From IMG/VR virus record IMGVR_UViG_3300046791_000339, positions 1 through 35,599 of that record: 35,599 nucleotides of DNA. The stretch is one strand, 5' to 3'. The notes under the pieces were generated by a model that saw only the letters and a list, made by a program, of their open reading frames with translations, was not told the DNA's origin and did no database searches. Source of the stretch: a virus. The first letter of the stretch is position 1. Every line of letters begins with the position of its first letter. The position numbers were made by a program, and so were the translations under genes. This document shows positions 7,683 to 35,599 of this stretch, in pieces.

Positions 7683-7703
7683 TCCGCCTGCCACACTGAA
7701 CCT

Positions 7704-7737
7704 GGCCCCATCGCGCAACCCCCGTCGCGGTGGGGCC
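7704..7737. terminator. Bidirectional terminator
   Basis: 12-bp stem (7704-7715 with 7726-7737) with one G:T pair, between the + microprotein gene and the - gene ending at 7741. Confidence 0.75.
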
Positions 7738-7740
7738 GTC

Positions 7741-7920
7741 CTATGCCCCGTCCGGTTCCTCGGCGGCGACCACGGGTGCGGGTATGGCGCGGGCCATCCA
7801 TCGGTTGTCGGTGAGCAGCTTCGGCCGCATCCACTCGACGAGGCCCAGCGACAGCAACTGCTTCAGCCCGGCCGTGGTCTCTGCTTCGGTGTCGCCCTGC
7901 ACGGTGAACCTCAACGCCAT
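7741..7920 (-). CDS. Small hypothetical protein (59 aa)
   Basis: The protein opens MALRFTVQGDTEAETTAGL and continues as a short alpha/beta domain (LLSLGLVEWMRPKLLTDNRW). The ATG at 7920 is preferred to a start at 8013 because the extra 31 residues are Pro/Arg-rich and unlike the rest; the ribosome site is weak for both. It has its own terminator on each side. I do not recognise the family. Confidence 0.55.
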   Translation of the reverse strand: MALRFTVQGDTEAETTAGLKQLLSLGLVEWMRPKLLTDNRWMARAIPAPVVAAEEPDGA

Positions 7921-8025
7921 CCCAGCAGTGTGGCGGCAGGGTCTGACAACGCGCGGCGGAACCGGAGAAGCGGGCTCGTAGACTGCGGGTGCGCGCCCAA
8001 CGCACTGCCTCATACGGGCAGGCAG

Positions 8026-8057
8026 ATGGCCCCACCAGTTTCGTCCGGCGGGGCCAT
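8026..8057 (-). terminator. Terminator of the 9053-8060 operon
   Basis: 11-bp stem (8026-8036 with 8047-8057) with one mismatch, immediately past the stop at 8060 on the minus strand. Confidence 0.7.
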
Positions 8058-8059
8058 CG

Positions 8060-8389
8060 TCATGCGGTGGGCTGCGTGCGTGTCGCCGTGAAGGCCCGGT
8101 CGGTTTCGTCTGTCGGGATCACGCAGAAGCTGGGATCTCCGATGGCCCATCCCGTGCCCGGCATGTTGCATGCGGCAGCGGCGGGGTGGCGGTCGGCGTA
8201 CACGAAGTTCCGTTGAGTCTCGGTCATGTGCTGGTCGCAGACGAGGGAGAACGTTGCGGGCGTTGTGAGACTCCAAGCGATGTGCCATGTGGCGGGCGCC
8301 CCGCATGCCGGGCTGTCGGAGGTGTCGCGGGATCCGCAGCGAGGGTTGCCGATGCGGGCGGTCGGGGTCAACTCGGGGCTGCCGCTCAC
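8060..8389 (-). CDS. Hypothetical protein with Cys/His pairs (109 aa)
   Basis: GTG start with GAGGAG 6 bases upstream; it overlaps the stop of the preceding gene (GTGA). Cysteines recur in pairs around a histidine: RCGSRD, PACGAPATWHIA, VCDQHMTE, ACNMPG, FCVIP. The pattern RCG...ACG...H...C-x2-H suggests a small metal-binding fold. No membrane segment. Last gene of a three-gene minus operon led by an HTH protein. Function unknown. Confidence 0.7.
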   Translation of the reverse strand: MSGSPELTPTARIGNPRCGSRDTSDSPACGAPATWHIAWSLTTPATFSLVCDQHMTETQRNFVYADRHPAAAACNMPGTGWAIGDPSFCVIPTDETDRAFTATRTQPTA

Positions 8390-8781
8390 GTCGGCTCCTC
8401 GCCCGGACGCACCGGACCCGCGCTGAGGTCAGGGTGGGTCGTGAACATGTGGCGCGTCGCCTCGCGGGCTGCTTCCTCCGCAGCGCTCAGCCCGGCAACC
8501 ACCACGTTCGGAGCCGCCACACGCGCCAGCGTCAACGCCTCCTCCAGCTCGTAGTCCGGGGCGTTGAACCAGGAGGGATCGTCGGGAACGAACCATGCCC
8601 CGTCGGGGCCGAGGCAGTACAGCGTGGGCACTGGCTGGCCCACCTCGCAGTGCTCGCGGTAGACGATCCACTTCCCGCGACCGTGGCTCTTGACGTGGAC
8701 GGTGTACCAGCGGCCGTTGGCTAGTTCGCGAGGGACGAGGGTGACCTCGTAGTGGGTGGCACGGACTTGGGGTTCGCTCAT
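8386..8781 (-). CDS. Hypothetical protein (131 aa)
   Basis: The ATG at 8781 opens MSEPQVRATHYEVTLV and overlaps the stop of the HTH gene by 4 bases; a start at 8919 would run back across that gene. The N-terminal 90 residues look like a compact beta domain with many aromatics (GRWYTVHVKSHGRGKWIVYR). A helical tail follows (AEEAAREATRHMF). It is not a family I know. It is translationally coupled on both sides. Confidence 0.7.
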   Translation of the reverse strand: MSEPQVRATHYEVTLVPRELANGRWYTVHVKSHGRGKWIVYREHCEVGQPVPTLYCLGPDGAWFVPDDPSWFNAPDYELEEALTLARVAAPNVVVAGLSAAEEAAREATRHMFTTHPDLSAGPVRPGEEPT

Positions 8782-9053
8782 CGGTTGGTCTCCTCGCCGC
8801 CCACCGGGCGCTTGGCTGCACGTCGCGCTCGGAGCTGCGCGCGAATCTCGGGGTTGAGTGCCTGCCTGATGGCCTCGCGGCTGTAGCCAGTGATACGGAC
8901 GACGTCGGCTTGCTTCCACCCGGCGCTGATGGCGGCACGCAGCTTGGCGTCCCGTTCTTCGAGGAGGCGTTCGGCGGCTTCCTCATAGTCGGTGGCGATG
9001 GCTTTGATCTCGGCTTCCTTCACCTCCCCAGAATGCCAGACCAGATTGGCCAT
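8778..9053 (-). CDS. Small helix-turn-helix protein (up to 91 aa), likely regulator
   Basis: A helical N-terminus (YEEAAERLLEERDAKLRAA) is followed by an HTH (WKQADVVRITGYSREAIRQAL) and a basic C-terminus (RAQLRARRAAKRP). Many small Streptomyces regulators have this layout. The ATG at 9053 has no ribosome site and lies inside the TTGGC/GCCAA control region. An ATC at 9008 in the same frame has AAGGA 7 bases upstream and would give a 76-aa protein; the true start is open. It heads the operon and may bind the motifs between it and the divergent gene at 9142. Confidence 0.7.
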   Translation of the reverse strand: MANLVWHSGEVKEAEIKAIATDYEEAAERLLEERDAKLRAAISAGWKQADVVRITGYSREAIRQALNPEIRAQLRARRAAKRPVGGEETNR

Positions 9054-25300: not shown

Positions 25301-27015
25301 TCACGACGGCTGTGACGAACGTCGTGAAGTGGATTGTCGGCTCGTTCCAGGGCATGTACGACACGCTGGTCGGGCACAGCATCATCCCGGACCTGGTCAA
25401 TGCGATCATCTCGTGGTTCACGTCGTTGTGGACGAAGACGAAGGAAATTTTCGGCGCGCTGAAGAAATGGGTCATCGACACCTGGAACAGCCTGTGGAAT
25501 TCGGCACGCAGCAAGTGGGACAGTTTTTGGAGCGGTCTCTCCGGCGCGCTCGGTAACGCGAAAACGTCGGTCCTGAACTGGGTGTCTGGGCTGAAAACAT
25601 CGCTTACGAACACGTGGTCGTCGATGTGGACGAGCGTGCGGAACACGTTGACATCTACGTTCACGACGATCAATACGAAGATCTCCGGGTTCGCGTCCGG
25701 AATGAAGACCGCATTCACCAACCTGCGAAACAGCCTGGGCACAATCTGGGACGGCGTGAGAGCCAAGATCTCCGCACCAGTCAAGTTCGTGGTGGGAACG
25801 GTCTACAACAACGGCATCCGCAAAATGTGGAACTCCATCGCAGGCAAGGTCAACTCGAAAATCACCCTGCCCGCCATCGGCCTCGGCTTCAACCGAGGCG
25901 GCGTCGTCCCCGGCACCGGCAACAGCGACACCGTCCCCGCCATGCTCACGCCCGGCGAGCGCATCCTGTCCAAGCAGCAGGTCACCAAGCTCGGTGGGCA
26001 TCGCGGCGTCGACGCCATGCTCGGCCAGGACCGGCCCACCAAGACCGGCGGCAACCCCAGCAGGCAGCAAGAGCGCACCCGCTACCAGGGCGGCACCCAG
26101 CACTTCGCAGGCGGCGGCATCGTCGGCAACGTCACCTCCGCTATCGGAGGCGCCATCAGCGGCGCTGCCAGCTGGGCGAAGGACATCGTCATCGGCGGCC
26201 TGAAGAGCGCCGCACAGAAGGCCCTCAGCTCGCTGGTGCGGCCGCTCATCAACCGCATCCCGGGCGGCAACAACATCGGCGGCCTGATGAAAGACACGTC
26301 GAACAAGGCCGTCGACAGCATGCTCAGCTGGTTCACCAACGAGGACAAGAAAGCCGTCGGCGGCCCGGCCGTACAGAAAGCTTTGTCGTGGGTTAAAACG
26401 CAGAATGGATTGCCTTATCAATGGGCTGGAAATGGGAACCCTTCCTGGGACTGCTCGGGTCTGATGTCCGCAATTGAATCGGTAATTCGCGGAGAGAAGC
26501 CGCACCGCCGCTGGGCTACCGGTTCCTTTGTCGGAAATAACGGCCCGGCCGGATGGGTCCGGAATTTGAATTCCCCGTTCATGATCGGCATCACGAACGC
26601 CGGGGTTGGCCACACCGCGGGCACACTCGCCGGACTGAACGTTGAGTCGTCCGGCGGCGCTGGCGTCCACATGGGCAAGAGCGCCCGCGGCTACAACAAC
26701 TCGCTGTTCACCAGCCGCTGGGGATTCGCCCCGGCCGCGAAGTACGACAGCGGCGGCCTGCTCCAGCCCGGCGCGACCATGGCCGTCAACGCCACCCGCA
26801 AGCCGGAGCGGATCCTCGACCCGCAGCAGTCGGCCCTGTTCGAGCAGCTCGTCAACGGCGGCAGCCACGGCGGGGCGTCCAGCGTGACGATCGAGAACAT
26901 CACCATCTCCGGAACCTTCGACTTCGCCACCCCCGCCGCACGCCGTGAGGCGGCGAACGCCCTGGTGACCGAGATGAAGGAAGCCATCCGCAAGTCCGAC
27001 AGGAGCCGCATCTGA
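22363..27015 (+). CDS. Tape measure protein with NlpC/P60-like domain (1550 aa)
   Basis: GTG with GGAGGG upstream. It sets tail length and is ejected ahead of the DNA. Residues 32-175 are six tandem 24-residue units. A hydrophobic part follows (200-260), then a long coiled coil (about 275-560) and hydrophobic, Leu/Ile/Pro/Val-rich repeats (about 780-960). Residues 1180-1212 hold the frequent motif GGVVPGTGNSDTVPAMLTPG with ERILS. Residues about 1340-1455 look like an NlpC/P60 peptidase: DC1364SG and GH1417TAG, able to cut peptidoglycan. Residues 1462-1497 are SGGLLQPG...PERILDPQQ. At roughly 1.5 angstrom per residue the tail would be about 230 nm. The peptidase segment 26384-26580 is clearly richer in A/T. 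Confidence 0.92.
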   Translation: MAGSFRIAEGYVEVTADESGYDAAIARLKAKKTNVKVGVDLDDKDALAKLDNLVKKRTVKITADMDTRTAADDLAALTRRRTVAVGADLDEASALTQLGQLSGDRTVRLFVHVDDAEAIARLDALTRDRMVTVLADADTRTAADDLALLTRRRTVRIDADADTAAAAARLDILTRDRTVTVRASMLGGLGGLGGAGNSANGVGLLSSKLVMLASAAIGALPTIASLGQSLISMGPAAALAAPAVLSLASAFTAVKLGTSGIGDAFKAAFAPATKSASAAATATHQVESAQRSLAKATQAVKDAEVNAAAARVKAARDIRDAQQNLKSTVSDVADSNRRAAESVASAERDLANAQKAARQAQLDLTQARKDAAQELQDLNNRLEDAQLDQRQKVLDLQDAEQELAAVKAKGGAASAEDLAKAQLAYDKAVQALEEQQTETQRLQDQTADANKAGVEGSATVTKAKQNISDANQDVTDKTQALKDAEIESARTQVDGAQKIAKAERDVADARAAAAKAAVDGARQIADAQENAREAAEALADAQTKGATAVNATAVAMAKLAPNAQAFVNAVLAQRDAWRSLKLDVQNTLFAGLGQKFTQLSTAVLPSLHTGLTGTAGVLNSMAKNAADAVINLAKTGTLKKMFTGLNDGLKPLSKVPGQFVKGLVQISVAASPAFKRVTTAAGGFFDGISKKIDTAVKNGHMEKAIDQALDIAKQFGHLIGDIFGTLGNVMKAASAGGGDALGAIGEAFKELRRITALPEVQKALTSIFQAINAIAKLFAGTLGAVIEAILPLLAALAPVVTELATKFGPILADLFQTLGKALGPIIDALLPIISDIGTIIIGLVQAVLPLLKPLGDFVGAIVAALGPVIGAIGSALVPVIAALAQGLAPVVTALVPVVQMFGQMLGQLAPLFPALFQALLPLIPPLTQLAVAIVGLVFQALMPLMPVIVKVAQMLTTVLAGAITTLVPGITMVIDWLTKFTTAVTNVVKWIVGSFQGMYDTLVGHSIIPDLVNAIISWFTSLWTKTKEIFGALKKWVIDTWNSLWNSARSKWDSFWSGLSGALGNAKTSVLNWVSGLKTSLTNTWSSMWTSVRNTLTSTFTTINTKISGFASGMKTAFTNLRNSLGTIWDGVRAKISAPVKFVVGTVYNNGIRKMWNSIAGKVNSKITLPAIGLGFNRGGVVPGTGNSDTVPAMLTPGERILSKQQVTKLGGHRGVDAMLGQDRPTKTGGNPSRQQERTRYQGGTQHFAGGGIVGNVTSAIGGAISGAASWAKDIVIGGLKSAAQKALSSLVRPLINRIPGGNNIGGLMKDTSNKAVDSMLSWFTNEDKKAVGGPAVQKALSWVKTQNGLPYQWAGNGNPSWDCSGLMSAIESVIRGEKPHRRWATGSFVGNNGPAGWVRNLNSPFMIGITNAGVGHTAGTLAGLNVESSGGAGVHMGKSARGYNNSLFTSRWGFAPAAKYDSGGLLQPGATMAVNATRKPERILDPQQSALFEQLVNGGSHGGASSVTIENITISGTFDFATPAARREAANALVTEMKEAIRKSDRSRI
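22456..22887 (+). repeat. Six tandem 24-codon repeats in the tape measure gene
   Basis: Units of exactly 24 residues follow the pattern (D/R)-R-T-V-x-(V/I)-x-(A/V)-D-x-D-x3-A-x3-L-x2-L-(T/S)-R, from residue 32 to 175, with a seventh start (DRTVTV) at 176. Units 2 and 5 share TRTAADDLA, suggesting duplication of units. Confidence 0.75.
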
Positions 27016-28228: not shown

Positions 28229-31090
28229 ATGGGTGTTCAGCAAGTCCTCAAAGCGCTCGGCACGTGGGACATCAAGTTCCAGTCGTCCACGCCGCGCGAC
28301 GTCCTCGATGCCCTCGACTACTTTGGGCACGTCGCGATCGTGCCGGGCCGGGTCGACCCGAAGCAGTACGGCGACAACCTCCTCACCGTGGCCCGCTACG
28401 TCGGCGTCCTCCGCACGAGGACGATCGGTGACGACGGCCGCACCAACGCGCCCCAAGACGACCTCTCCGTCGGCGGCGTCGGCATGGCCATGTGGCTCGG
28501 CGACGAGGACGACAAGGGCAGTGTCTACGAGAACGCCGTCACCGCCGCATCCGCATCGTTCGCGGACACCATCCGCATGCTGCTCCCTGGTTCCGGCGCC
28601 ATCACCGAGGGCGCCCTCTACTCGGTGGCCGGCCTGTACTCGGGTACGCACCGGTATGAGTCGCCACGCAAAGCCATCCAATACGTGTGCGACACCATGT
28701 CCACGCCCTCGACGCCCGTCTCGTGGCGGGTGAACAACACCGGCACCATCGACGCCGGCCCGGACAGCAGCCTGTTCGTAACCACGCCGACATGCGTCAT
28801 CGTCACCGCGGGCGCCGGCGAGGACATGGCGTTGCGGGCGCTACCTGGTTCGATGGATGTCACCCGGGATGTGGAGGACTTCACCACTCGCGTCGTGCTC
28901 CTGGCGGAGGGTGACGGCGACAGCATCGCCACGGGGGCGGCGGACATCAGCCCGGCGCCCCCGTACAAGGACATTCACGGCAACACCATCCAGCTGACCC
29001 GCCTCGTGAGCGAGTCGGACACGGTGACGGGCAACGCCGAAACACGCGCACAGTTGGCGCTGTCCCAGTTCACCAGCACCCGCAACGCGCTCACACTGTC
29101 GACCACCGACTACGACGTGCACGGGAGCTTCCAGGTCGGGGACCGGGTGTGGGTGTACAACCCGGACGCGGGGCTGGTGGATACGAGCACGGAGATCGTG
29201 TTCCGCGGGCTGCGGATCAACCCGCTCAAGTTGCAGGTGACCGAGGTCAGTTGGGCTGTCACCGCCGGGTACACGGTCGCCTACCGGGCCGCGGACGGTA
29301 CGTGGACGGACCTCACCGACTATGTCGAGGCGGAGACCGACGACACCAACACGGTGACCGTCGGCGACTTCGCGCGGCAGTTGACGAGCGCGGGTACGGA
29401 GCCGGTCGGCAGCCGGCCCAACGCGGACACCTCGGTGCCGGGCCAGCCGACGTTCGTGGAGCCGTTCACCGGACTCGCGTATTTGGATGACAGGGGCTTC
29501 ACGAAGGCGCGGGTGATCCTCAACTGGAATGCCCCGCTGAACGTCGACGGGTCCACGATCGTCGACGGGGATCACTACGAGATCCGGTACGCGGTCGACA
29601 CGGACATGATTTATCCGGCGACGTGGGCGTCGGTGTCGGAGATCCGCTGGCAGGACATGCAGACGTGGGCGCAGCCGTTCGCCGCGCCGGATGGTCAGTG
29701 GCAGTTGATGGTTGTCAACTGGGACACGGTCACAGCCCAGTTGCAGGATCTGTCGCCGGGTATCGGCTATGACGTGCAGATCCGGGGGGTCGACAAGACC
29801 GGTAACACCGGGGCCTGGTCGAGCGTGACGACGTTCGTGACGTCCACGGACAACATTCCGCCGTCGACTCCGGCCGCACCGTCGGTGGCGGGTAGCCGGA
29901 TTGCTGTGCAGGTGACGCACCAGCTCGGCAAGTCGTCGGGCGGGACGTTCAACCTCGAAAGCGACCTGGATCATCTGGAGATCCACGTCTCCTATGAGCC
30001 CGGCTTCACCCCCGACTCGACCACGCTGCGGGGCAAGGCGCTCGCGAACGCGGGCATGATCCAGGCTGGCATCGCGGTCGTGTTCACCGTGCAGGTCGAG
30101 GAGACCAGCGCCCGCTACGTGCGCGTGGTGGCGGTCGACAAGACGGGCAACAAGAGCGGACCGTCCGACGCGGCCACCGCGACCGCGCTGTTGATCGACG
30201 ACGCTCACATCAGCGACCTCACCGTCTCCAAAGTCACCGCAGGATCGATCCTCGCCGACTGGGTCGTCGCCGCACGCCTGAAAACCGCCGATACCGGGTC
30301 CCGCGTCGAACTCAACTCGGCTGGCCTCCAGGCCTACAGTGCAGCCGGAACACAGACCGTGAACATCGCCGCAGCCGACGGCTCCGTCACCATCATCGGC
30401 CAGCTCAAATCAGGCACGTCCGGCCGCCGCCTGGAGATCAACCCCACCGCAACATTCCTCCCCGAGATCCGCTTCTACGCCAACAACGGAACCGATTTCG
30501 GCTACATCAACGGTGTCAGTTCCGGCTCGGACGTCCTGCTGGGCATGAACTCGTCGCAGTATGACGACGGCACCGGCACTCAGGTCATCTCCCGAGCCTT
30601 CCTCACCACCACCCGAGCGGAACTCGCCGTCATCCGAGCCGACGATCAAGGCCGCCGTGGCGGCTACGTCTGGGTGCAACCCGATTCGCTCTATGCCGGG
30701 TTCAACCGGGCTGGCACGGACGGCGGCTTCTACTACGCCGACGTCGACAAGGGCCGCTTCGGCTGGAACCCCAACGACAGCACCAACGGCCAATACTTCG
30801 ATCTCACCAGCGGCCGAACTCGCCATGTCGGCCGATGGGCCGACTACCTCGCGGCAGGCACTACGGACGGCCTGTTCACTGCCGACGAGCCGTTCGTGAC
30901 TGCTGGCGATACATCCTTGGGTCTCGGCTATGGGGCGACGATGGCATCAACGATGGTGCCCATAGTGACCCTGCGACACCCGACGCTGCGCACGTGGCAG
31001 ATCACCGCGGCATCCACGACCGGGTTCACCGTGACGGTCGGGACATCGTCCGGCACCCCGTCCCTGAGCGTCTGGAGCTACCGTGTCTGA
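28229..31090 (+). CDS. Tail tip / Tal-like protein with FnIII-like domains (953 aa)
   Basis: ATG with GGAGG 8 bases upstream. Residues 1-390 form the tail-hub part with FQVGDRVWVYNPDAGLVD near 305-320, usual in siphovirus Tal proteins. Two fibronectin-III-like domains are likely at about 404-540 and 544-657, each ending in VDKTGN-x-(G/S) (RGVDKTGNTGAWS, VAVDKTGNKSGPS). A linker LIDDAHISDLTVSKVTAGSI (about 653-672) opens a C-terminal beta region with GYINGVSSGSDVLLGM, probably receptor-facing. It would contact the host surface. GTGTCTGA overlap with the next gene. Confidence 0.82.
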   Translation: MGVQQVLKALGTWDIKFQSSTPRDVLDALDYFGHVAIVPGRVDPKQYGDNLLTVARYVGVLRTRTIGDDGRTNAPQDDLSVGGVGMAMWLGDEDDKGSVYENAVTAASASFADTIRMLLPGSGAITEGALYSVAGLYSGTHRYESPRKAIQYVCDTMSTPSTPVSWRVNNTGTIDAGPDSSLFVTTPTCVIVTAGAGEDMALRALPGSMDVTRDVEDFTTRVVLLAEGDGDSIATGAADISPAPPYKDIHGNTIQLTRLVSESDTVTGNAETRAQLALSQFTSTRNALTLSTTDYDVHGSFQVGDRVWVYNPDAGLVDTSTEIVFRGLRINPLKLQVTEVSWAVTAGYTVAYRAADGTWTDLTDYVEAETDDTNTVTVGDFARQLTSAGTEPVGSRPNADTSVPGQPTFVEPFTGLAYLDDRGFTKARVILNWNAPLNVDGSTIVDGDHYEIRYAVDTDMIYPATWASVSEIRWQDMQTWAQPFAAPDGQWQLMVVNWDTVTAQLQDLSPGIGYDVQIRGVDKTGNTGAWSSVTTFVTSTDNIPPSTPAAPSVAGSRIAVQVTHQLGKSSGGTFNLESDLDHLEIHVSYEPGFTPDSTTLRGKALANAGMIQAGIAVVFTVQVEETSARYVRVVAVDKTGNKSGPSDAATATALLIDDAHISDLTVSKVTAGSILADWVVAARLKTADTGSRVELNSAGLQAYSAAGTQTVNIAAADGSVTIIGQLKSGTSGRRLEINPTATFLPEIRFYANNGTDFGYINGVSSGSDVLLGMNSSQYDDGTGTQVISRAFLTTTRAELAVIRADDQGRRGGYVWVQPDSLYAGFNRAGTDGGFYYADVDKGRFGWNPNDSTNGQYFDLTSGRTRHVGRWADYLAAGTTDGLFTADEPFVTAGDTSLGLGYGATMASTMVPIVTLRHPTLRTWQITAASTTGFTVTVGTSSGTPSLSVWSYRV

Positions 31091-31628: not shown

Positions 31629-32634
31629 CCCGTCCACTACACGGTTGGCCCTCTACAAGTCCAAGTCGGACGGGTCCGAGTTCACCAACTACAGTCAAGA
31701 TATCGGTCAAAACCTCGACAAGCTGGACGCGGCTGCTGGCTTCCAGATCGTCACCTCGTCGACCCGCCCATCGTCCCCGTACTCGGGGAAGCCGATCGCG
31801 GAGTCGGACACGGGCCGCCTCTACTACTCCAACGCCTCAATCCCGGCGTCCGGGTCGTGGGTGGAGATCGCCTCCAACGGCGCCACCTTCACCATGACCG
31901 GCACCCGCGCGATCGTCCTTAACGGCACCGCGAACAGCACGGTCAAGCAAACCTGCCTCGTCGCCGGTGACACCTTCAACCGGTTCGAGCAGACCGCCGA
32001 CGGCACCATGAGCTGGGGCCCGGGCTCGGGTGCTGTCGACGCCGTGCTCGCCCGCACCGCCACCTCCACCATCGGCACCGCGAGCGGCGACCACTTCAAA
32101 GTCGGCGGCGACCTGAGGTTGGTGAACGGGGCCACGACCCTCCGCAACCAACTCGCCGCCACGGTGACCGTCGCGAACACCGTCACCGAAACCGTCATCG
32201 GCACCCTCACCATCCCCGCCAACGACACCGTCGTCGGAGCCGTCTACCGCGTCGTCGTCTACGGCACCGCCTCTGTGACGGGCACGCCTACGTTCACGAT
32301 TCGCGGCCGGCTGGGTGGTGTGGCCGGCACGCTCGCGGCGACGATCGGCGCGGTCACTGCCTCGTCGGGTGTCACGAATCAGACGTGGTCGGTGGAGTTC
32401 GACATTGTGTGTCTGACGACGGGTGGGTCGGGTACGTGGATGCCGCGGATGGTGGTGGTGCAGAACGTGACTGCGGCGGCTGCGCAGACGGGGACGGTGT
32501 TGTTGCCGGTGTCGGGTGCGTCGGTGACGCGGGATACGACGGCGTCGTCGGACATGGTGGTGACGTGGGCGTGGTCTGCGGCGTCTGCGTCGAATACGGC
32601 GACCGCGAGGGCGTTCGCCTACCGGATCGCTTAG
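31621..32634 (+). CDS. Tail fibre / receptor-binding-type protein (337 aa)
   Basis: GTG start overlaps the previous gene. The N-terminus (RLALYKSKSDGSEFTNYSQD, IGQNLDKLDAAAGF) is a common attachment segment of actinophage fibres. Residues about 40-165 are Ser/Thr/Gly-rich beta (GRLYYSNASIPASGSWVEIA). Residues about 180-337 look like one beta-sandwich (VYRVVVYGTASVTGTPTFTI, SVEFDIVCLTTGG). From about 32280 the codons switch from mostly C-ending to mostly G- and T-ending, a sign that the tip domain came from elsewhere. The stop overlaps the convergent minus gene. Confidence 0.75.
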   Translation: MPDPSTTRLALYKSKSDGSEFTNYSQDIGQNLDKLDAAAGFQIVTSSTRPSSPYSGKPIAESDTGRLYYSNASIPASGSWVEIASNGATFTMTGTRAIVLNGTANSTVKQTCLVAGDTFNRFEQTADGTMSWGPGSGAVDAVLARTATSTIGTASGDHFKVGGDLRLVNGATTLRNQLAATVTVANTVTETVIGTLTIPANDTVVGAVYRVVVYGTASVTGTPTFTIRGRLGGVAGTLAATIGAVTASSGVTNQTWSVEFDIVCLTTGGSGTWMPRMVVVQNVTAAAAQTGTVLLPVSGASVTRDTTASSDMVVTWAWSAASASNTATARAFAYRIA

Positions 32635-32882
32635 CCCTCGTTGTCGGGGTAGGGCGGCTGGGAGGCGAGGTCCGGGCCGCCGGACGGGGGGAACGGCGGG
32701 CCGCCAGCTCGGTTGGTGCGCTCGCTCGCTTCCTGCACGGCGGCGAGTTCCCGGTGGAGGCCTGCGACTTGGGAGCGGAGAAGCATGTTCTCGTCGAAGA
32801 GTTCGGTGCAGCGTTTCCGGTAGACGGGGAAGGCGTCCTCGATGAGGATCTTGCCGTCGTCCTGCTGCGGGGGCTGGGTCAT
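32631..32882 (-). CDS. Small coiled-coil protein (83 aa)
   Basis: ATG at 32882 overlaps the preceding stop (ATGA). Residues 10-52 are helical with heptad character (PVYRKRCTELFDENMLLRSQ, VAGLHRELAAVQEASER). The last 25 residues are Pro/Gly-rich. It is the last gene of the minus operon from the right edge. Its stop overlaps the stop of the fibre gene by 3 bases and no terminator separates them, so opposing transcripts must run into each other. Confidence 0.65.
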   Translation of the reverse strand: MTQPPQQDDGKILIEDAFPVYRKRCTELFDENMLLRSQVAGLHRELAAVQEASERTNRAGGPPFPPSGGPDLASQPPYPDNEG

Positions 32883-33397
32883 GAGGTTGCTCCTTGCTTG
32901 TTGACGGTCGCGTTGGGATGGATGCTGGCGGGTGCGAGCCCTTCGCGGCGGGCACGGTGCAGCCAGCCGCGCACGGTCGCTGCGGACGTGTCGTACCGTT
33001 CCGCCAGGGTCTCCGCCGGGTTCTGTGCCCCAGCTGCCGTGGCCTCGGCGTATTCCGCCGCCGCCTTGGCGAGCTTGAGCAGGCCCTTACGTCGGCGGAG
33101 CGCGTTGCCGTGGGTGGCGTCTTCGAGCTCGGGGTACCGCGCGGCGACGAGGCTCGCGGCCACCTCTTCCGCGTTTCCCGAGGGGTTCTGTTCAGTGGCC
33201 AAGAGCTGCTTTGCGGCTGCGCCACGGGCCCGCCGTTCCCAGCGGCTCAGCGGCAGGGTGGTGATAGAGAGCGGCGTGCCGTCCATGGCCGAGACGCGGA
33301 CTCCTACGAGGACGAGACCGTTTGACCCCTGTGGAGTGAAGGAGAAGGTGGCCTCAACGCCGGGCAGTTCGTCGTCGGTGATCGGTGCGTGGATCAC
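32879..33397 (-). CDS. Beta-domain / HTH protein A (172 aa)
   Basis: ATG overlaps the previous stop. Residues 1-55 are beta-rich (GVEATFSFTPQGSNGLVLVG). About 55-130 are helical and basic (SRWERRARGAAAKQLLA, RRRKGLLKLAKAAAEYAEA). About 128-158 form an HTH (NPAETLAERYDTSAATVRGW, then LHRARREGLAPA). The same order and a similar HTH occur in the protein at 33980-34534, so the two are probably paralogues. Likely a DNA-binding regulator; no family named. Confidence 0.7.
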   Translation of the reverse strand: MIHAPITDDELPGVEATFSFTPQGSNGLVLVGVRVSAMDGTPLSITTLPLSRWERRARGAAAKQLLATEQNPSGNAEEVAASLVAARYPELEDATHGNALRRRKGLLKLAKAAAEYAEATAAGAQNPAETLAERYDTSAATVRGWLHRARREGLAPASIHPNATVNKQGATS

Positions 33398-33654
33398 TGG
33401 CCCTCCTCGTCTCCGAGTAGGCGGCGCATGTCTTCCTGACTGAGGACGCGTTCGCCGGGTTCGAGGTAGATCGCTCGTATTCCCGGTTGGAGGAAGCCGC
33501 CTGCGTCGTACATCATCTCATCGGCGATCTTCTTGGCGAGCCTCTTGCGGTCCTCCTCGTTGTCGAGGTCGTAGGCGTCCGTACGGTGCAGGAGGCAATC
33601 CTTGTCGCGCGTGTGCTGCGCAAGTCCCTCGCAGCAGGGCAGCTCGGCGGTCAT
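33394..33654 (-). CDS. Small protein with tape-measure-like motifs (86 aa)
   Basis: ATG overlaps the XRE gene stop by 4 bases. N-terminal Cys/His stretch (PCCEGLAQHTRDKDCLLH), an acidic helix (DLDNEEDRKRLAKKIADEM), then DAGGFLQPG (50-58) and LEPGERVLSQEDMRRLLG (64-81). The first matches DSGGLLQPG (1462-1470) and the second matches LTPGERILSKQQVTKLGG (1195-1212) of this window's tape measure. It may engage the same partner as the tape measure does. Function unknown. Confidence 0.65.
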   Translation of the reverse strand: MTAELPCCEGLAQHTRDKDCLLHRTDAYDLDNEEDRKRLAKKIADEMMYDAGGFLQPGIRAIYLEPGERVLSQEDMRRLLGDEEGQ

Positions 33655-33983
33655 GATGTGGCCCCACATCCTCGGCAGACGAAGCCGATAGGTGGCGTTC
33701 CGGCGCAGGTGGTGCACGCGTCGGGCTGATTGAGGAGTTGTTGCGGAGTCACCTTCAGCGCCACCGCGAGGGCTGCGAGGTCGTCCACGGTCACATGTCG
33801 TTCCAGCCGCTCGATCTTCGCCACAGCTGATGGGGTGATGGGCCTCCCCGCTCCGTTCAGTGCGTCCGACAGCGAGTAGATCGACAGGCCGCGTACTTCG
33901 CGCAGGACTCGCACGTTTGCCGCGACACGCTCTGCCGTGGCTCCGAACTGTGTTGCTGGGCGGGGGCGCCGCTCCTCGCTCAC
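33651..33983 (-). CDS. XRE-family HTH regulator with C-terminal zinc ribbon (110 aa)
   Basis: Residues 17-85 are an XRE-type HTH: RVAANVRVLREVRGLSIYSL, TPSAVAKIERLERHVTVDDL and ALAVALKVTPQQLL. The C-terminus adds C90-x2-C93 and C103-x2-C106, a zinc ribbon. XRE proteins are frequent phage repressors or toxin-antitoxin regulators. The ATG overlaps the stop of the gene before (ATGA). Being buried in an operon it cannot be the classic repressor gene with its own switch promoter, unless a promoter lies inside the gene before. Confidence 0.8.
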   Translation of the reverse strand: MSEERRPRPATQFGATAERVAANVRVLREVRGLSIYSLSDALNGAGRPITPSAVAKIERLERHVTVDDLAALAVALKVTPQQLLNQPDACTTCAGTPPIGFVCRGCGATS

Positions 33984-34534
33984 GACTTCGCCTCCAACAG
34001 TCGGGGGCCAGGATCAGCCCCTGCCCGCCCTTGGGCGGCCGGACCGAGCCAGCCCTCATTCCGGGCGCGCGCAATCCAGTTGTTGATGGTCTTCACTGGT
34101 CGGTCGAAGCGAGCAGCCACGCGGGTTACGGCAGCCCGGTCTTTCCCTGGCGCGGTCTCTTCGAGGTAGGCCACGGCAACCCGCCGCAGTAGGTCATCGG
34201 TGAGGGGAGCCCGGCCCGGCATTCGGGCCTCGGCGGCGCACGTGCATCGGACCGCGCTTGGGTCGCTAGAACTGGGAGGCTGCCAACTCGGCGAAGACCG
34301 AAGCGCCGAGATGATCTCTCCAATGGGGACCCGCCTGTTGGTCCTGGAAGTCAGACCGTTTGGCCGTTGCGTGCTCCAACTCATCTCGGTTACGACTACG
34401 CCGCGTTCGGTCCGCCGGGCTGTGCCCGAAACTTGGATCTCGTCGTCAGGTGACTGGCAGCGGAATTGGGCCGCCTCCGGGTCGCCATCTGCCTGGGTGA
34501 CTTCCAACTGCCACGAGCCTGCGAAGTCGGTCAT
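33980..34534 (-). CDS. Beta-domain / HTH protein B (184 aa)
   Basis: ATG at 34534 overlaps the glycosyltransferase stop; a start at 34606 would lie in that gene. N-terminal beta domain (FAGSWQLEVTQADGDPEAAQ, GVVVTEMSWSTQRPNGL), a middle with one Cys pair (RCTCAAEARMPGRAPL) and a C-terminal HTH (VTRVAARFDRPVKTINNWIA, RARNEGWLGPA). The HTH aligns with that of the protein at 32879-33397. Probable DNA-binding protein. Confidence 0.7.
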   Translation of the reverse strand: MTDFAGSWQLEVTQADGDPEAAQFRCQSPDDEIQVSGTARRTERGVVVTEMSWSTQRPNGLTSRTNRRVPIGEIISALRSSPSWQPPSSSDPSAVRCTCAAEARMPGRAPLTDDLLRRVAVAYLEETAPGKDRAAVTRVAARFDRPVKTINNWIARARNEGWLGPAAQGRAGADPGPRLLEAKS

Positions 34535-35157
34535 GTCTGCCTCGGTGCTGCGTCGCCTTGGCCGGGGATGCCGGAGGAGTTTCCGCGATGATGCGTCCAT
34601 CCCCACGTTCTGCGGGCGGCATGGTAGAACTTCGCGCCCGCGTCCACGCAGCCGATTGTGAAGTGCCAGTCTTCGCCGCCCCGGTGGCCGCCGACGACGC
34701 TGTCCGGGGGCGGCTCGCGGAAGCCGACGGCCTTCGCGAGGTCGGTCCGCACGAGCGTGGTGATGGTCGTTTGGTGCGGGGCCGCCGGGTTGAACGGCTT
34801 CCCGAAATGACCGAGCGGATCATTCTGCGGCCACGGGCGGCCGTCGGGGAAGTGGACCATGTAATAACTGAATACGTAAGAGGCGTTGAAGATCTTCGCC
34901 CCGGCCGCCAGTACCCGCAGGTGCTCCGGGTAGAAGACGTCATCTGAATCCAGGAAGGCAGTCCACTCGGTCTTGACCGCGTCCAACGCCCGTTGCCGGG
35001 TGATGGCTGCGCCGTCGCCGTGTTCGTCGATGGCGATGCTGATGTCGGCGGCGGGGTGGAGTTGGTTGCGGACGGATTGGACGGCGCGGTCGAGCATGCC
35101 GTTGGCGACACGTGCCGGGTGAGCTGGAATCGCAACGGTGATCTCAAGCGGGTTCAC
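34531..35157 (-). CDS. Soluble family 2 glycosyltransferase (208 aa)
   Basis: GTG at 35157 is chosen for GGAGG 8 bases upstream; it overlaps the preceding stop (GTGA). GT-A fold: ITVAIPAHPARV at the start, ISIAIDEHGDGAAITRQRAL, the DXD motif in FLDSDDVFYPEHLRVL, and GGEDWHFTIGCVDAG near the end corresponding to the catalytic-base ED region. No membrane segment, in contrast to the enzyme at 2573. Phage enzymes of this kind modify phage DNA bases, virion proteins or host glycans; which one cannot be told here. Confidence 0.85.
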   Translation of the reverse strand: MNPLEITVAIPAHPARVANGMLDRAVQSVRNQLHPAADISIAIDEHGDGAAITRQRALDAVKTEWTAFLDSDDVFYPEHLRVLAAGAKIFNASYVFSYYMVHFPDGRPWPQNDPLGHFGKPFNPAAPHQTTITTLVRTDLAKAVGFREPPPDSVVGGHRGGEDWHFTIGCVDAGAKFYHAARRTWGWTHHRGNSSGIPGQGDAAPRQT

Positions 35158-35420
35158 GGCAGCCACCTCCGAGTGAGCCCGCCCTGTAGCCACTCGTTGA
35201 GCTGTGCGCCGAGGGCGCCTTCGTCGATCACGAGCAGTTTCCCTTCAGGGCATGCGGGGCTTGGGCGCACGGTGAGGATGTCGGCGGCGCCTGCTTGGTC
35301 AACGGCTGCACGTACCTCATGCTCGCGGTGGGGTTCGCACAGGACGGTGCGTTTCGACTCCTCGCGAGTGATGTGGACGAAGTTGATCGCGTCGAGCATC
35401 CGCTGTAGCTCGTCGCTCAT
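35154..35420 (-). CDS. Hypothetical protein (88 aa)
   Basis: ATG at 35420 overlaps the stop of the partial gene to the right (ATGA). Soluble alpha/beta: SDELQRMLDAINFVHITREE, TVLCEPHREHEVRAAVDQAG, KLLVIDEGALGAQLNEWLQG. An extended start at 35480 is less likely because it would run over the neighbour. Coupled to the glycosyltransferase. Function unknown. Confidence 0.65.
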   Translation of the reverse strand: MSDELQRMLDAINFVHITREESKRTVLCEPHREHEVRAAVDQAGAADILTVRPSPACPEGKLLVIDEGALGAQLNEWLQGGLTRRWLP

Positions 35421-35599
35421 GCTTCGGCTGCTTCCTTCCACGACGTACGCTCCTCCAACCGGTCCGCCACCACCGCGCACACCAACGCCGCCTGGAAATG
35501 CGCCTGAGACTGGGCGATCCGGGCCCGAGCCTGTTCACCCCAATTCGAGTTGAGGTCGACCCCGGCCAACAGCCGCTTCCCCTCCCGCAGATGCTCCGG
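35417..35599 (-). CDS. Partial hypothetical protein, start beyond the right edge
   Basis: An open frame enters from the edge and encodes 60 residues to a TGA at 35417, helical and Ala/Glu-rich (QARARIAQSQAHFQAALVCA, VVADRLEERTSWKEAAEA). The stop overlaps the next ATG by 4 bases, as everywhere in this operon, which supports it being real. The first gene and promoter of the operon lie outside the window. Confidence 0.65.
   Translation of the reverse strand, partial: PEHLREGKRLLAGVDLNSNWGEQARARIAQSQAHFQAALVCAVVADRLEERTSWKEAAEA

Follow-up and report, generated by a model that had tools for sequence, protein, structure and literature searches.

A box shared by an 86-residue protein and the tail tape measure of a probable Streptomyces phage: a candidate portable docking tag

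Why should a small phage protein, encoded outside the run of tail genes and on the other strand, resemble the tape measure protein of the same phage? The question is raised by IMG/VR virus record IMGVR_UViG_3300046791_000339, of which the whole stretch of 35,599 nucleotides (the window) was analysed, and it concerns the 86-residue protein P0001 (Table 1). A preliminary description had drawn attention to two motifs common to the two proteins, and the positions it gave are all exact: DAGGFLQPG occupies residues 50-58 and LEPGERVLSQEDMRRLLG residues 64-81 of P0001, while the tape measure carries DSGGLLQPG at 1462-1470 and LTPGERILSKQQVTKLGG at 1195-1212. The best local alignment score between the proteins (48) was equalled or exceeded in 26 of 2000 whole-protein shuffles and, when only the last 39 residues of P0001 were shuffled, in 2 of 2000; the two-motif match is thus by itself only suggestive.

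Table 1. Features of the window relevant to P0001 and to the boxes of the tape measure protein
Feature	Position	Strand	Basis or remark
Tail tape measure protein, 1550 aa	22363..27015	+	PHROG 4197 (3e-128), 6090 (3.8e-126)
Box A of tape measure, residues 1179-1212: GGVVPGTGNSDTVPAMLTPGERILSKQQVTKLGG	25897..25998	+	Alignment, profile, hhalign
Box B of tape measure, residues 1461-1497: YDSGGLLQPGATMAVNATRKPERILDPQQSALFEQLV	26743..26853	+	Alignment, hhalign
Last small gene of row, 83 aa	32631..32882	-	Most widely kept of the small genes
HTH_28-like protein, under Pfam cut-off	32879..33397	-	4-base overlap with end of P0001 gene
Gene of 86-aa P0001	33394..33654	-	ORF list; orthologues L045, L005
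C-terminal tag of P0001, residues 49-81: YDAGGFLQPGIRAIYLEPGERVLSQEDMRRLLG	33412..33510	-	Profile, hhalign and reverse searches
Cys/His cluster of P0001, residues 7-23 (C7, C8, H14, C20, H23)	33586..33636	-	Orthologue alignment
XRE/HTH_3 regulator with Cys-pair tail	33651..33983	-	4-base overlap with start of P0001 gene
HTH_23-like protein, under Pfam cut-off	33980..34606	-	Homologue precedes L045 orthologue
Family 2 glycosyltransferase, same row	34531..35193	-	Glycos_transf_2, E 1.1e-9; in many kin

Taken alone, P0001 matched no model in Pfam or NCBIfam, gave nothing significant against PHROG (best E 0.085) and hit none of the PADLOC families at E <= 0.01. As a single-sequence query its sole matches in the phage database were tape measures (E 2-5); only weak matches were returned among phages and plasmids, and none among viral contigs or GTDB genomes; its XRE neighbour used as query found no matches either. 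Two AlphaFold2 models were both too poor (mean pLDDT 50.8 and 45.7) to establish a common fold of the small protein's C-terminus and the tape measure segments. Simple hydropathy revealed neither a signal peptide nor a membrane segment (maximum mean Kyte-Doolittle value 0.47, 17-residue window), and action outside the cell is therefore not expected.

Relatives were sought with the product of 28229-31090, a large tail protein, as query, which led to 51 related viral loci and six loci in named genomes, five of Streptomyces and one of Amycolatopsis; since the named relatives are mostly Streptomyces, we infer that the window belongs to a phage or prophage of that genus. Within these loci tblastn located two full-length orthologues of P0001, at 18964-19218 of L045 and 16024-16272 of L005 (both on the minus strand), each 53% identical to it by tblastn and 54 and 52% identical when aligned, and an alignment search with all three found none beyond these two. 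Much of the C-terminal pattern GG..L.PG...I.LEPGE..LS.ED..RLL is unchanged among the three proteins, as are all five cysteines and histidines of the N-terminal cluster, which may constitute a putative metal site. Pairwise NG86 estimates (dN 0.17-0.35, dS 0.62-0.85, dN/dS about 0.28-0.45) indicate that the orthologues are under purifying selection.

The conserved C-terminal segment, here called the tag, spans about 33 residues with the consensus GG-x2/3-PG-x5-L-x-PGE-x-[VI]-[LV]-[ST], and it is carried by other proteins as well. The tag-bearing set comprises P0001 and its orthologues in L045 and L005, a 47-residue ORF in L032 and L035, and epimerase fusions in L046, L094, L017 and bacterial genome G192; in every one of these proteins the box sits at the C-terminal end. 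The C-terminal tails are 33-56% identical to that of P0001, yet GG, PG, L, PGE and R are conserved across them.

A profile (A1) was built from five of these tails, with tape measures excluded, and run against the 18,508 ORFs, none shorter than 30 residues, that the window and its 57 kin loci contain (58 sources). Below eight tag-bearing ORFs, tape measures made up 35 of the 36 best non-self matches (E 1e-6 to 0.3), the 35 being those that fit box-type regular expressions, in 35 of the 58 sources. The best score was 28.1 bits, against 20.5 for the best of 100 column-shuffled profiles; none of the shuffled profiles ranked a tape measure first or placed more than one in its top 36, and the reversed profile had no tape measure among its top matches. 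For the reciprocal test, each box was turned into an HMM based on 26 tape measures, and box-type tape measures were removed from the targets. With box A, P0001, L005 and L046 were among the top matches, after two other tape-measure-sized ORFs; with box B, the first three were L032, L035 and P0001 (E 0.008-0.1 for the tag matches). The tail profile against the ORFs, the column shuffles and the reciprocal searches together rule out chance. The similarity that was marginal in the raw comparison is thus borne out through relatives, and these comparisons are good support for descent of the tag and the tape measure segment from one source.

Common origin need not mean common function, and recombined pieces of tape measure genes might simply be tolerated at C-termini, or Gly/Pro turns might have converged. 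PGE turns are common, the weak profile matches include unrelated proteins (PheT-like and PP2C-like by inspection), and the tags are both rare and fast-varying. The residues kept in the diverged tails, the purifying selection on the orthologues and the failure of any of 100 shuffled profiles to give a comparable result nevertheless render this explanation quite improbable.

The same alignments bear on how P0001 relates to its two counterparts. According to the preliminary description the motifs lie on either side of a peptidase in the tape measure and are brought together in P0001; the flanking position of the two sites stands, but a fusion of two tape measure ends is ruled out, since the tag as a whole is collinear with either site. 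By hhalign the tag profile matched box A with a probability of 95.9 over 28 columns and box B with 93.1 over 27 columns, both collinear, as site A reads GGVVPG...LTPGERILS from residue 1179 and site B extends to KPERIL at residue 1485. Since either site aligns with the full segment, P0001 holds one whole copy of the box. Box A and box B were only weakly matched to each other (probability 41.8, 13 columns), and as the tag joins the boxes better than the boxes join each other, it is likely, rather than proven, that the tape measure has two copies of one box. The spacing from PG to PGE is seven residues in the tags vs 12 in box A. A closer match between a tag and the tape measure encoded by the same phage was also looked for and was not found: in similarity to the tag, the own-phage tape measure ranked from 5 to 23 of 27 for box A and from 7 to 19 for box B, and since the tag is no nearer its own tape measure than others, a self-directed or co-evolving pair is unsupported.

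Within the tape measures the boxes frame an exchangeable region. Box A is almost invariant and box B well conserved among the 26 aligned tape measures. In the window the peptidase between them is weakly supported (NlpC/P60, E 0.063; 13.7 bits, the cut-off being 23); residues 1165-1550 matched no Pfam family at E <= 0.001, and the region between the boxes matches PHROG endolysin families. The tape measure of L035 (region 7701-8783; that of L032 is near-identical) has an SLT transglycosylase at this place (E 5.5e-6) and retains both boxes, whereas the other 25 aligned tape measures (region 25855-27012 in the window) have a peptidase-like segment with DCSG, a comparison of sequences which indicates that the hydrolase region bounded by the boxes is exchangeable. 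At tblastn E <= 10 box A matched 940 phage records and box B 445, nearly all of them tape measures among the 60 matches listed for each. The virion lysozyme of cyanophage S-SCSM1, whose gene lies between the hub genes and the tape measure gene, has the box at about residue 617, ahead of a glucosaminidase domain (697-816), and box A was found too in proteins of P-TIM68 and of a Pelagibacter phage; from these matches, the box accompanies virion proteins and at times hydrolase domains. Among solved structures box A had no match, and the tag profile gave only four chance-level matches (E 0.48-0.99).

What, then, does the box do on proteins that are not structural? The genes of the tagged proteins in the kin lie on the strand opposite the tail genes and a few kilobases past them. 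In L032 and L035, which are near-identical here, the tag makes up most of the 47-residue ORF, and among PHROG families it is closest to 4197, a tape measure family (E 0.028). In L046 the tag closes a protein of 357 residues, of which the first 220 or so match Pfam Epimerase (E 1.3e-41) and which is assigned to a nucleotide-sugar epimerase PHROG (E 4.5e-59); L094, from Streptomyces sp. NRRL S-1022, carries the same tagged gene, and L017 and G192 have related epimerases ending in diverged versions of the tag. Most kin with sufficient flanking sequence have a minus-strand glycosyltransferase/nucleotide-sugar epimerase cassette directly past the tail genes (window 32631-35480; right flanks of L002-L052), and two main types of it occur, GT1/epimerase/GTx and the GT2 type of the window. 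Lysogenic conversion genes typically form cassettes of this kind beside regulators.

Tag proteins are rare, being absent from 20 of the 27 loci that have the epimerase of this cassette, and the tag is therefore dispensable; for the same reason the notion that each genome has one tag, either fused to the epimerase or free, was dropped. Tag proteins occurred in 7 of 27 records with a tape measure box match and in none of the 19 others (46 records; Fisher 0.031), or in 6 of 26 and none of 19 when the near-identical L032 and L035 are counted once (Fisher 0.032), in a test that treats related records as independent.

The epimerases suggest that the box might be an address label, taking its protein onto or into the tail or to the site of assembly; the epimerase and the small Cys/His protein would then work on the virion or travel with it, and competition with the tape measure would not be the point. 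A complete nucleotide-sugar epimerase ends in the box in three distinct records, the glycosyltransferase-rich cassette adjoins the tail genes and, in phages other than actinophages, virion proteins near hub genes have the box. Most epimerases of this cassette are nevertheless untagged, the cassette and the tail genes lie on different strands, and a folded enzyme of about 360 residues would exceed the tail lumen. We regard delivery as a general account of the tag as doubtful; for the tagged epimerase taken separately, placement on the tail is no less likely than competition, and the fusion suits a docking tag no worse than it suits a decoy.

The immediate neighbours of P0001 offer a different clue. 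Its row of minus-strand genes, preceded by the GT2 glycosyltransferase, runs with 4-base overlaps from the HTH_23-like protein through the XRE regulator, P0001 and the HTH_28-like protein to the 83-residue protein; L045 retains the order HTH_23, orthologue, HTH_28 (its HTH_28 homologue being 55% identical to that of the window), and two XRE genes precede the orthologue in L005. P0001 might accordingly be a partner or antagonist of the DNA-binding proteins of its operon, the box serving as a general protein-contact element for which the tail is irrelevant. The overlaps with HTH genes on either side in the window are consistent with this, as are the XRE (L005) or HTH_23 (L045) genes directly before the orthologues, the HTH_28 gene after that of L045, and the conserved Cys/His cluster. 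The set of HTH neighbours varies among the three orthologues, however, and why epimerases and the 47-residue protein should carry this tag is left unexplained, which makes this possibility an unlikely one. The XRE regulator of the window itself ends in CTTCAGTPPIGFVCRGCG, a possible zinc ribbon, and a regulator in L005 has a similar Cys-pair tail at its end.

The reading to which we lean, tentatively and at somewhat less than an even chance, is that the box is a portable docking tag with which P0001 competes against tape measures from the prophage state. The last 33 or so residues of P0001 are a single GG-PG-PGE box, of which the tape measure probably has two, and through this tag a non-structural protein of the phage would bind in trans to the receiver of the tape measure boxes, candidates being the tail-tip assembly complex or a membrane factor engaged during injection. 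The Cys/His N-terminus may fold or oligomerise P0001. With less assurance, the 86-residue and 47-residue proteins may act from a prophage by occupying that partner, which would impede other phages with box-bearing tape measures in assembling their tails or bringing in their genomes. A competitor role seems the most likely one for these two because they are free of enzyme domains and their genes lie in a cassette of the lysogenic conversion type, and competition of P0001 with the tape measure in a lysogen is plausible; our confidence is held back because the self-directed pair is unsupported, the structure models are poor and the tags are rare.

The preliminary description had gone from the motifs to a shared partner, perhaps the tail tip hub, a chaperone or a host factor, and to a decoy role for the small protein; of this interpretation the common origin of the segment is what the analysis upholds. 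A shared binding partner of the tag and the tape measure boxes is a natural inference from their resemblance. Nothing points specifically to the hub, because in mycobacteriophage Douge the hub and the distal tail protein are reported to be bound by the final 42 tape measure residues (PMC13033339); the tape measure of the window has 53 residues beyond site B, and these are absent from P0001.

In the literature searched, no paper contained any of five motif strings of the box and, among the matches listed for tape-measure decoys and shared small proteins, none described the tag. The nearest known systems each differ from P0001 in some respect. With the actinophage tape measures (PHROG 4197/6090) it has the GG-PG-PGE box in common, but it is 86 residues long rather than a very long protein in the tail gene run, shares the box only, lacks the final C-terminal segment and is encoded in a separate minus-strand row. 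Ltp of Streptococcus thermophilus phages, likewise a small prophage-encoded protein tied to the C-terminal part of the tape measure, is described as acting on the C-termini of tape measures (PMC3952083, PMC11480721). It is a lipoprotein of the cell surface and a binder of the tape measure, whereas P0001 is signal-free and resembles the tape measure itself; there is too little sequence ahead of C7 for a signal, and a lipobox or anchor of the Ltp type is absent. Tai proteins, which are encoded by prophages or satellites and act on tails inside the cell, are reported to block tail assembly, but their suggested targets are the central tail fibre or the tail needle (PMC11364771). Ltp and Tai would thus be precedents in kind for a decoy role of P0001, by analogy. 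The lambda tape measure has been found beside ManYZ at injection, and the DUF4041 nuclease SNIPE is a defence that exploits this tape measure contact during genome injection (PMC13190303); SNIPE is a membrane nuclease, while P0001 is without a nuclease or membrane part.

What appears to be new is the reuse of a tape measure box as a C-terminal tag on proteins of a conversion cassette, one of them an enzyme. Should the box prove to be a docking signal, it would provide a short, testable handle on the seating of the C-terminal part of the tape measure and on how cargo could be attached to siphophage tails, and a tape-measure mimic would be added to the known prophage weapons; otherwise its value is as a marker of where an exchangeable hydrolase region is bounded. 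A wider and somewhat unlikely generalisation is that phages at large use the box as a "join the tail" address tag, which would seat the hydrolase regions of tape measures and virion lysozymes and which temperate Streptomyces phages would have moved onto an epimerase and small adaptors, either for placement on the tail or for poisoning the assembly or entry of rivals.

Searches were extended to bacterial genomes in overlapping sets of 6, 392, 394 and 296, the large sets being judged on the best 18-24 candidates per genome. In the set of six whole genomes (7.6-11.1 Mb) a prophage tape measure was the best non-tag match in three, G046 (E 0.014), G047 (0.034) and G048 (0.052), and not in the other three. 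The large sets again returned tape measures, in G431 (E 2.4e-4), G510, G046 and G192 (E <= 0.01). At the cut-offs used, the real matches of the genome searches amounted to one new genome with a tagged epimerase (G192) and tape measures, the remaining matches being unrelated or ambiguous; of the loci extracted, L111 is a tape measure and L118 has a tape-measure-like box. Successive pattern scans of viral contigs yielded nothing, then seven stretches (four kin and three due to chance), and then four (three kin and L137). The last is a lone small protein (L137, 10482-10895, minus strand) with a similar box, GGIIEPGWHVERLEPGERYIRL, on an unrelated-looking contig, and having been found by pattern it may be due to chance; its tblastn match in phage OzzyJ is antisense to an annotated gene. 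A 60-residue ORF in a short frame of L113 (G560) contains the tag-like DAGGLLAPGCVAVYALASGDVVLSALD, with E 4e-4 within that genome.
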